Below are positions 8,751-35,322 of a stretch of 37,828 bases of DNA, one piece after another (the stretch's first letter is position 1; every line of letters begins with the position of its first letter). Position numbers and translations under genes: made by a program. This stretch comes from Deltaproteobacteria bacterium (GTDB lineage: Bacteria; Desulfobacterota; Binatia; UBA12015), in assembly GCA_016874795.1 (NCBI GenBank), contig VGTG01000045.1, forward strand, positions 1 through 37,828, in the 5' to 3' direction. The notes beneath the pieces were generated by a model, which was not told the origin of the DNA, did no database searches, and worked only from the letters and a program-made list of their open reading frames with translations.

Positions 8751-8834
8751 GGGGGTCCGGTTCGTTGCGGCGCATCTGCACCCAGGCTCGAACGAGCCTG
8801 GGTGCAGATGCGCCGCAACGAACCGGACCCCCTT
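8749..8834. repeat. 86-bp perfect palindrome, copy 1 of a dispersed repeat; likely bidirectional terminator
   Basis: Two 42-bp arms (8749-8790 and 8793-8834) are perfect reverse complements around a 2-nt centre (AA). Each arm reads outward-in AAGGGGGTCCGGTTCGTT, then GCGGCGCATCTGCACCC, then AGGCTCG. The element exactly fills the space between two convergent stop codons: its first two bases are the end of TAA (8748-8750) and its last base is the first base of TCA, the complement of the opposite TGA (8836-8834). A second, diverged copy lies at 35231-35322. No T-tract is present, but the stem would be extremely stable in RNA. Confidence 0.93.
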
Positions 8835-30023: not shown

Positions 30024-31157
30024 TCATAGGTACCGGTCGAGTGCGCGAATCGCCTCCGCGAATGGCACGATGTCCACGCCGCTCTCGTGCCAGCGCCGGG
30101 TGCCGAGATGGAGCAGGTAGGCCTTCGCGCGCGGGTAGTCCACGAGAAATAGCTGCAAGGGCCTCAGGTCCTCGGCACGCGGACGCGAGCTGCGCTTCAC
30201 CTCGAAGGCGACCAGGCCGCGCTCACCATAGAGTACGAAATCGACTTCGTCGCCCTTGGCGGTACGCCAGTAGTGCAGCGTGTAGCCGAGCTCGTGATAG
30301 TCGTTCACCGCACGGAGCTGCTGGAGCATCAGCGTTTCGAGGGCTGGCCCGGCGATCTCCTCGGCCACGTCGAGTGGCCCACGCGGCCGCACGGTCTGGA
30401 AGATCCCGGCATCGAAGAAGTAGAACTTCGGATGCGCCAGCAGCCGCCGCTTGGCGCGGCGCGTGAAGACCGGAAGCCGGACAGCGATCAGTAGGTCCTC
30501 GAGAATCGTAAAGTAGTCCTCGGCGACTTTGGCGTGGACTGCCGCTTCCCGCGCTACCCCGGCCATGCTGAGCACGCTGCCCTGCGAGAAGCTCGCGGCC
30601 TCGAGGAAGCGAGCGAACGCTCCCGTATTGCGCACGAACCCCTCCTGCTGCACCTCTTCGCGCAGATACGTCGAAACGTAGCTCGACAGGTACTCCTTCG
30701 GCCTTGGGGTCGCGCAGGCGAACGGCAGGCAGCCGAACCGGATGGCTCGCTCGAGATTGAAGTCGGGCCCGAGCTCCAGCGCGGTGAGCGGGTGCATGAA
30801 GCGCGTCAAGGCGCGCCCGGCCAGCAGGTTCACGCCTCGGCGCCGCAGCTTGCGAGCGCTGGATCCGGTGAGCGCGAAGCGAAGCTTGCGGCCTTCGATG
30901 AGGCGGTGCACCTCGTTCAATACCTCCGGAACCCGCTGCACCTCGTCGATCACCACCCAGCCGCGATAGGACCGGGGAATCTGCTCGCCGAGCTGGTCCG
31001 GGGACGCGAGCAACCGGGTATAGACTCGTGCGTCCAGGAGGTCGAACCACAGTGCGTCGGGTAGGGTCTGGCGCAGCCATGCGGTTTTTCCCGTGCCGCG
31101 CGGTCCGAAGAGGAAGAAGCTCTGGGTCCCGGGCGGCTCGAGCAATCGCGCATACAC
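30024..31157 (-). CDS. AAA_14-DUF4143 ATPase
   Basis: A 377-residue P-loop protein. Walker A is FLFGPRGTGKTAWL (residues ~16-29), Walker B WVVIDEVQRVP, and the sensor-type motif FALTGSSARKLRR. The C-terminal DUF4143 part contains KFYFFDAGIF and a nuclease-like GDEVDFVLYGERGLVAFEVK (D-x-D, E-x-K arrangement of PD-(D/E)XK folds). These proteins are widespread, often horizontally transferred, and of uncertain function. The start is GTG 31157, immediately beside the A/T-rich stretch TCTTTTTTAC, rare in this window. Base composition here looks less GC-rich than in the neighbours, consistent with acquisition. Confidence 0.9.
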   Translation of the reverse strand: MYARLLEPPGTQSFFLFGPRGTGKTAWLRQTLPDALWFDLLDARVYTRLLASPDQLGEQIPRSYRGWVVIDEVQRVPEVLNEVHRLIEGRKLRFALTGSSARKLRRRGVNLLAGRALTRFMHPLTALELGPDFNLERAIRFGCLPFACATPRPKEYLSSYVSTYLREEVQQEGFVRNTGAFARFLEAASFSQGSVLSMAGVAREAAVHAKVAEDYFTILEDLLIAVRLPVFTRRAKRRLLAHPKFYFFDAGIFQTVRPRGPLDVAEEIAGPALETLMLQQLRAVNDYHELGYTLHYWRTAKGDEVDFVLYGERGLVAFEVKRSSRPRAEDLRPLQLFLVDYPRAKAYLLHLGTRRWHESGVDIVPFAEAIRALDRYL

Positions 31158-31793: not shown

Positions 31794-32342
31794 ATGCCGA
31801 GCGAGCAGCTCACGGTCTTGAAGCTCGTCGCGGAAACGCTCGACGGCGCCGGTCTGCCCTACATGCTGAGCGGCTCGACCGCCATGAACTACTACGCCCA
31901 GCCCCGCATGACGCGTGACATCGACCTCGTCGTGGAGCTGTCGGCGGACGACGCACCCCGCTTCACGCACCTCTTCGGGGCGGCCTTCTACCTCGACGAC
32001 GACGCGGTCGCGGACGCCATCGCGCGGCAGGGTATGTTCAACCTCATCCACACGGCGCTGGTCATCAAGGTCGACTTCATCGTCCGCAAGGGCACGGCCT
32101 ACCGGCGGGAGGAATTTTCCCGCCGCCGAAGGATCCGGGTCGACGACTTCGACCTCTGGATCGTCACGGCAGAGGACCTGGTTCTCTCCAAGCTCGACTG
32201 GGCCAGGGACAGTCGCTCGGAGCTGCAGCTCGCCGACGTCCGCAACTTGACCACGGCCGTCGCCGATCTCGACTGGTCGTATCTCGAGCGCTGGGCAGCA
32301 GTGCTCGGCGTCACGGAGCTGCTTCGCGAGGTGCGGTCGTGA
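31794..32342 (+). CDS. Nucleotidyltransferase of the AbiEii/MNT-like type
   Basis: A 182-residue protein. YMLSGSTAMNYYAQPRMTRD, followed by IDLVVEL, matches the nucleotidyltransferase pattern G-S-x-A, R-x-T-x-D-I-D-L with its metal-binding Asp pair. IKVDFIVRKG supplies a third acidic position, and VTAEDLVLSKLDWARDSRSE is the conserved helix typical of AbiEii/DUF6036-type proteins. Such enzymes act in toxin-antitoxin or abortive-infection pairs by modifying RNA or protein. ATG 31794 has GGGGGAG 3-9 nt upstream. The stop overlaps the GTG of the next gene (GTGA), so the two form a tight pair. Confidence 0.85.
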   Translation: MPSEQLTVLKLVAETLDGAGLPYMLSGSTAMNYYAQPRMTRDIDLVVELSADDAPRFTHLFGAAFYLDDDAVADAIARQGMFNLIHTALVIKVDFIVRKGTAYRREEFSRRRRIRVDDFDLWIVTAEDLVLSKLDWARDSRSELQLADVRNLTTAVADLDWSYLERWAAVLGVTELLREVRS

Positions 32343-34757: not shown

Positions 34758-34790
34758 CGGGAGTCGCGGGACCCCCTCCCGCGACTCCCG
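34758..34790. terminator. Strong hairpin after the copper-monooxygenase-like gene
   Basis: CGGGAGTCGCGGG (34758-34770) pairs perfectly with CCCGCGACTCCCG (34778-34790) around a 7-nt loop, 13 nt after the TAG stop. There is no T-run, as is common in high-GC genomes, so it may act through Rho-independent stalling or 3'-end protection. Its right arm is the first unit of the tandem array at 34781-34870. Confidence 0.65.
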
Positions 34791-34870
34791 CGCTTCACGC
34801 GACTCCCGCGCTTCACGCGACTCCCGCGACTCCCGCGCTTCACGCGACTCCCGCGACTCCCGCGCTTCAC
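34781..34870. repeat. Two-letter 9-bp tandem array (ABABAABAAB)
   Basis: Ten 9-bp units of two kinds, A = GCGACTCCC and B = GCGCTTCAC, follow in the order A B A B A A B A A B. The first A belongs to the right arm of the terminator-like hairpin (left-arm complement GGGAGTCGC), so five further A copies offer alternative pairing partners. In one plus frame the array encodes a Ser-Arg-Asp/Ala repeat, but no gene start or downstream continuation supports translation. Confidence 0.92.
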
Positions 34871-34889
34871 GCCTCGCAGGGAAACGCGC

Positions 34890-35075
34890 CTAGCCTGCAT
34901 TTCTCACCAGATCACGTCGCGAGGCGGTCGAGAGTGCCGAAGATTCGCGAGCCTCGGACCGGAGGGCGACGCAGGCGTACTTGAACAGTACGTCGAGGAG
35001 CCCGGAGGGAGAAGCTCGCGAAGATTCGGTGCTATCGGCCGCCGCAGTAGGGATCTGGTGAGAAATGCAGGCTAG
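34890..35075. mobile_element. MITE-like 186-bp element with 24-bp perfect terminal inverted repeats
   Basis: CTAGCCTGCATTTCTCACC plus five bases (34890-34913) is the exact reverse complement of 35052-35075, so both ends read CTAG. Inside, CCGAA-GAT-TCGCGAGC near 34938-34953 pairs with GCTCGCGA-AGA-TTCGG near 35014-35029, and an apical hairpin CGTACT-TGAAC-AGTACG is at about 34976-34992. The whole element can thus fold into one long rod. No transposase is encoded. Its right end supplies the TAG stop of the DUF1428 remnant. It is either a non-autonomous mobile element or a structured dispersed repeat. Confidence 0.8.
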
Positions 35076-35230
35076 AGGCGAACGATGTCCTCGAAGCGGC
35101 CGAAGATCATCCGCTTGGCGTCGAACGGCATCGACTCCCCGTCCATGTCGAGCCGCGGGTCGGCCATCACCTTCTTGTTGATCCGGTTCCGCTGCGCGCG
35201 CGACTGGTAGACGATGTAGACGTGAGACGT
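35072..35230 (-). pseudogene. C-terminal fragment of a DUF1428 (YbaA-like) protein
   Basis: About 52 codons read SHVYIVYQSRAQRNRINKKV, then MADPRLDMDGESMPFDAKRM and IFGRFEDIVRL. This matches the DUF1428 C-terminus (I-V-Y-x-S-R, R-I-N-K-K-V-M-x-D-P-R, M-P-F-D-x-K-R-M-I-F-G-F). The N-terminal half is missing: upstream of the fragment the palindromic repeat begins at 35231. The stop TAG lies inside the terminal repeat of the MITE-like element. Both edges of this fragment are therefore repeat boundaries, which points to disruption by these elements. Confidence 0.78.
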
Positions 35231-35322
35231 GGGGTCCGGTTCGTTCGGGCGTATCTGCACCCAGGCTCGCCAGGCTCGCTCGGTCAGCCTGGGTGCAGAT
35301 GCGGGCAAACGAACCGGACCCC
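35231..35322. repeat. Imperfect copy 2 of the palindromic repeat
   Basis: Arms 35231-35267 and 35286-35322 match over two perfect 15-bp blocks (GGGGTCCGGTTCGTT with its complement, and ATCTGCACCCAGGCT with its complement), separated by a 7-bp stretch with four mismatches; the centre is 18 nt. The arms are clearly the same family as those at 8749-8834, 26 kb away. CAGGCTCG is duplicated at the tip. It borders the truncated DUF1428 gene and precedes the MBL-fold gene by about 36 bp. Confidence 0.88.

Follow-up and report, generated by a model that had tools for sequence, protein, structure and literature searches.

A non-autonomous IS1380-type element with a conserved, probably RNA-level core in a Deltaproteobacteria genome

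A 178-bp element in a 37,828-nucleotide stretch of DNA from a Deltaproteobacteria bacterium (the whole stretch is hereafter referred to as the window) is best explained, with a probability of roughly 0.8, as a non-autonomous MITE of the IS1380 type, one of about 120 recent copies, with a core that would be a conserved structured RNA. An earlier note on this DNA had left the choice between two candidates, a mobile element that is non-autonomous and a dispersed RNA with structure, and the analysis supports both at once. The MITE reading is based on the many copies in both orientations, the CTAG duplication, a clean comparison of occupied and empty sites and the existence of IS1380 elements with matching ends.

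Perfect 24-nt inverted repeats (34890-34913 and 35052-35075) are present at both ends, as the earlier note had stated for a 186-bp element with termini ending in CTAG. Its repeats stand and its borders do not, since CTAG flanks the copies on both sides and is doubled around exactly 178 bp in a disrupted repeat, which identifies it as duplicated target DNA outside the element. The 24-bp repeat thus consists of a 20-bp TIR and the duplicated 4-bp CTAG target, and the element proper covers 34894-35071 (Table 1). The rod-like folding described previously was borne out over the whole of 34890-35075, with a DNA minimum free energy of -68.2 kcal/mol as against -32.3 +/- 3.0 in shuffles (z -11.9). No transposase ORF was found inside 34890-35075, again as claimed, and the element shows the features of a MITE in being short, bounded by perfect terminal inverted repeats and without a transposase. 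Further matches to the 18-nt end in the window (up to 3 mismatches) were not found, 0.02 being expected by chance. The right terminus had also been credited with giving the neighbouring gene remnant its stop codon; the TAG (35074-35072, minus strand) does lie in the right CTAG, but it would be there at the empty site too.

Table 1. Positions of the element, its parts and the adjoining gene remnant in the window
Feature	Position	Strand	Evidence
Left target duplication, CTAG	34890..34893	.	31/32 host copies CTAG/CTAG; nested insertion in 82-bp repeat
Left TIR CCTGCATTTCTCACCAGATC, IS1380-type end	34894..34913	+	247 genomic matches; IS1380 ends differ at 1-3 positions
Non-autonomous 178-bp element; putative RNA sense strand +	34894..35071	+	40 full copies; exact 178-bp insertion at G000:C58
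Conserved structured core (model R1 region, TIR mostly outside)	34910..35055	+	Covariance model, compensatory changes
Conserved internal-loop strand CGTCGCGAG	34915..34923	+	Faces GCAGTAG at about 35044-35050; (nearly) invariant in class alignment, recurs in other phyla
Apical hairpin region AGGCGTACTTGAACAGTACGTCGAGGA	34972..35000	+	Helix 9 of alignment A6
Right TIR, perfect copy of left TIR	35052..35071	-	Inverted-repeat and end-match searches
Right target duplication, CTAG	35072..35075	.	Holds TAG stop of minus-strand DUF1428 remnant
DUF1428 gene C-terminal remnant, ending at CTAG	35072..35308	-	PF07237, E 1.7e-8, profile positions 68-102 of 102

Several other features were observed in the window. 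A tandem array of CTCCCGCGA (34776-34872; period 9, or 27 with CTTCACGCG) lies directly to the left of the element. Another dispersed repeat, which is unrelated to the element, forms a near-perfect hairpin of 82-92 bp (GGGGTCCGGTTCGTT...AACGAACCGGACCCC). It occurs at 35231-35322 and 8752-8831 and in about 40 further copies in the host, one copy interrupting the same DUF1428 remnant. An ORF at 31794-32342 with a weak match to AbiEii-type nucleotidyltransferases, just below the Pfam cut-off, is found near a DUF4143/AAA_14 ATPase gene (30024-31157).

When up to 3 mismatches were allowed, the 21-nt end matched the host genome (6.27 Mb, 360 contigs) at 247 places and the reversed control at none. 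This corresponds to about 120 copies, which occur in both orientations. A single genomic copy, named in the earlier note as grounds for rejection, is thus not what is seen. The full copies scored (n=40) are 98-100% identical, and CTAG is present on both flanks in 31 of the 32 copies inspected; CTAG occurs 11 times in the window as against about 148 for an average 4-mer. Among the places listed, at least 17 contigs break off no further than about 160 bases from an element end, so that the repeat itself fragments the host assembly.

The comparison of occupied and empty sites, which had been put forward as a check, revealed a clean 178-bp insertion with CTAG duplication in a disrupted copy of the 82-bp hairpin repeat. 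The element at G000:C58 splits this repeat such that repeat positions 1-34 lie at 1622-1655 and positions 31-82 at 1834-1885, which places exactly 178 bp between the halves with CTAG doubled. The uninterrupted copies of the repeat that were listed have no gap at the insertion point and usually read CACCCAGGC there; they alone are independent evidence, since the 82-bp query was itself assembled from the two flanks, fused at a single CTAG. The genes flanking another insertion site were found free of the element in three congeners, where the flanking genes align and the intergenic parts have diverged, so that these empty sites are not clean to the base. No element match was obtained in congeners G001 and G003. 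Identical flanks other than CTAG in relatives (TTAG three times, CTAA and TTAA) lend support to a 4-bp duplication, the duplicated target being CTAG in the host and YTAR in the relatives. The copies, the target duplication and the autonomous elements with the same ends together support the identification of the element as a recently amplified MITE with IS1380-type ends.

A covariance model of the interior, made from alignment A4 with the TIRs left out, detected the core in 45 of the 395 genomes sampled across the phylum. An alignment of ten copies from five related genomes was made by sequence only and not fitted to structure; 31 of its 66 pairs are compensatory, where shuffling gives 9.8 and sliding the structure gives no more than 6. 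Alignment A6, which unlike the ten-copy alignment was fitted to the model, contains 44 core matches, in which 43 of 44 pairs changed on both sides, 91.3% of the cells pair (60.7% when shuffled) and covariation reaches 0.718 (at most 0.085 when slid). In helix 9 of A6, the apical hairpin, 7 of the 8 pairs carry changes on both sides and 96.5% are paired. The stems of the core vary and the loops are kept, with CGTCGCGAG facing GCAGYAG and AGGCR-stem-YGTYGAGGA at the tip; these motifs recur, whole or in part, in elements of Eisenbacteria, Gammaproteobacteria, Nitrospira, Acidobacteria and Verrucomicrobia. Rfam 15 gave no match in the window at the gathering threshold, and permissive limits produced only unrelated chance-level matches. 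The covariance analysis suggested at the outset has thus revealed compensatory changes in nearly every stem pair, the changes looked for in a structured RNA, and they strongly support the view that the core is a conserved structure, more than deletion debris. With the copy number and the clean empty site, this means that none of the grounds for rejection named in the earlier note applies.

Elements of about 240 bp in Gammaproteobacteria (L072, L085, L088, L101, L108, L131) share the CTAGCCTGCATTTCTCACCAG ends and have a different interior, which is partly strongly structured; adjacent or composite copies are seen at L101. These elements were left out of the element set.

Core matches found without recourse to the TIR have a TIR just outside in 18 of 30 cases and are without terminal repeats in the other 12. 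Core copies, at least some of them TIR-less and sometimes in clusters of two or three, were observed at L261, L264, L270 and L286-L291. The TIR-less copies are possibly domesticated or decayed forms. They can also be taken to indicate a dispersed RNA that serves the host, with a regulatory or 3'-end role, and that in some lineages came to be enclosed by IS1380 ends; the clustering of some of them in twos or threes, and the intergenic location of a short RNA family of Geobacter, for example 5' of lysine/arginine genes in the available text of its description (PMC2700814), would agree with such a role. This possibility is unlikely, as the congeners range from no copies to about 120, CTAG dictates the insertion sites and no gene-orientation bias exists in the host genome. 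At the ten host copies that adjoin a gene stop, the RNA strand is sense in 6 cases and antisense in 6, two of these copies lying between convergent genes, and nothing points to a function linked to the adjoining gene. A fixed role as a sense 3' UTR of host genes was rejected on the same 6:6 distribution.

The position of the insertions relative to genes was also examined. Of 26 host copies, 10 are located exactly at the TAG that ends a gene, the coding status of which was judged from codon bias. Open frames of 150 codons or more are present at 22 of 26 insertions compared to 25 of 46 other CTAG sites. The enrichment at gene stops over other CTAG sites is suggestive only, since the null sites were drawn from overlapping loci. 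As the target CTAG holds a stop codon, insertion preserves the stop of the gene.

Whether the conserved object is RNA or single-stranded DNA can be judged from the folding of the two strands. Of the two strands, the one with CGUCGCGAG has the more stable fold in 30 of 31 elements. This also holds for 42 of 42 cores, by a mean of -15.3 kcal/mol with RNA parameters. The same strand is favoured in 42 of 42 cores with DNA parameters (mean -7.2 kcal/mol), and the rod also folds as DNA, both of which would be compatible with a single-stranded DNA hairpin acting as the substrate of a transposase or of a Y1/RAYT-like enzyme. Such a substrate is improbable, slightly more so than the host-serving RNA considered above: the aligned core pairs comprise 159 GU as against 45 AC, RNA parameters double the strand advantage, and a DDE transposase of the IS1380 kind works on double-stranded ends. 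The strand asymmetry and the GU excess favour RNA over single-stranded DNA, and we infer that selection on the core would act at the RNA level.

The source of mobility was sought among insertion sequences with the same ends. The 18-nt terminus is present in many phyla, paired at a spacing of 140-320 bp, and near-identical ends (1-3 mismatches) bound IS1380 transposase genes in several other genomes. CTAG/CTAG flanks are found at the IS1380 loci L138 (1742 bp, with 2 mismatches at each end), L149, L150 and L277, and the ends of L168, L190 and L196 match those of the element, L168 being from an Eisenbacteria genome that also carries many of the small elements. A second end type, CCCGSATTATTCATGA, flanks the IS1380 loci L139, L142, L149 and L150; at L249-L251 it encloses copies of the same core. 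The single intact IS1380 of G189, a complete genome in one contig with many core copies, has this second end type, as do the small elements of G189. A core at L254 (G371) was observed to be bounded by a further end type, CCTAGGCCYAAAWCAAGC..., which was seen on no IS1380 in this set. The element ends begin with CC beside the 4-bp duplicated target, as expected for mobilisation by IS1380. The search for an insertion sequence with the same ends thus succeeded in other genomes and yielded none intact in the host, the assembly of which has only a remnant of an IS1380 gene; intact IS1380 was likewise absent from most of the other core-bearing genomes searched. The case for IS1380, the transposase of which presumably mobilises the element in trans, is therefore drawn from the matching ends seen in other genomes. 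Searches of viral contigs, phages and plasmids gave no match.

No core match was detected in the IS1380 loci examined, and an origin of the core as a remnant of IS1380 UTRs was rejected on this basis. The same absence bears on the view that the element is an ordinary MITE, a deletion derivative of IS1380 with an arbitrary interior and a rod that simply follows from having long inverted repeats. The TIRs, the target duplication and the burst of identical copies would all be accounted for in this way, and stable hairpin transcripts have been called typical of MITEs (PMC10969869). An interior that is conserved without TIRs in 45 of 395 genomes, with invariant loop motifs and compensatory changes at 43 of 44 pairs, is not, and these features of the core largely refute this explanation, which is left with a small probability. 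The IS630 and IS5/IS427 families also use TA-containing targets, and mobilisation by one of them and not by IS1380 would suit a host without an intact IS1380, but it is very improbable, as no DDE_3 (PF13358) match was found in the host, the single host DDE_Tnp_1 locus (PF01609, IS4/IS5-type) lacks such ends, IS1380 genes in several genomes are bounded by them and the 4-bp duplications include the TTAG/TTAG type.

In the preferred reading, a non-autonomous IS1380-type MITE with a structured RNA core, an IS1380 transposase supplied in trans (not intact in the host assembly) would bind the TIRs and move the element into CTAG. As CTAG contains a stop codon, insertion at a gene end would keep the gene closed at a low cost to the host. 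The core would be transcribed from the CGUCGCGAG strand and fold into a rod-like RNA kept by selection. In what is the weakest step, the RNA would most likely aid the persistence of the element itself, for instance by insulating read-through or by helping it move, and not a particular host gene; this is suggested by the recurrence of the RNA strand with a matching TIR type in many lineages. A wider proposal, tentative and with the balance somewhat against it, is that of phylum-spanning mobile elements without proteins, whose RNA core outlasts changes in TIR type (apparently tracking IS1380) and is needed for mobility or survival.

The interiors of bacterial MITEs are usually regarded as free of constraint, and the elements themselves as debris left by deletion, whereas the present interior is a very well-supported, unassigned structure in dozens of genera. 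Its link to a defined transposase family makes it testable whether a non-autonomous transposon can depend on RNA structure, and a core family would annotate many repeats now listed without identity. The CTAG/TTAA target suggests how bursts are tolerated, insertions at stop codons leaving genes closed. Among the papers searched, none joins IS1380 with CTAG and the target site, and the exact end sequence appeared only in two unrelated papers. New here is a deeply conserved RNA-like core, absent from Rfam and of presumptive function, inside an IS1380-type MITE.

Among known systems, dispersed imperfect palindromes with a GTAG/CTAG-like tetranucleotide are typical of the REP/BIME elements associated with RAYT transposases, and the element resembles them in this respect. 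REPs differ in having no 20-bp TIRs plus 4-bp target duplication. IS1380 serves as the outgroup to piggyBac, which targets TTAA and has ends mostly starting with CCC (PMC10813416). The TIRs of the element similarly start with CC at a 4-bp YTAR target and matching ends flank IS1380 transposases, whereas the element has no transposase and its core does not occur in the IS1380 loci examined. Bacterial MITEs such as QMITE2 of Coxiella, Correia and Nezha are likewise short, TIR-bounded and multi-copy, with target duplication and a hairpin transcript (PMC10969869, a review in which IS1380 is not mentioned); the element differs in that its interior is deeply conserved and covaries extensively, in different genera and phyla. 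A further comparison is with a family of predicted short RNAs in Geobacter metallireducens, Gmet_R1005 together with 23 others (Aklujkar et al. 2009; PMC2700814). In the available text, the family has the central palindrome GRCGTAGCGCTGCTACGCC and is also seen in G. sulfurreducens, G. uraniireducens and Desulfotalea. That text does not link the family to IS1380 or to terminal repeats. The palindrome corresponds to the apical hairpin of the core when this is read on the opposite strand, and the core at L270 has GACGTAGCCCTGCTACGCC, one base off GRCGTAGCGCTGCTACGCC; compared by the central palindrome only, the Geobacter family as there described is probably the same core.
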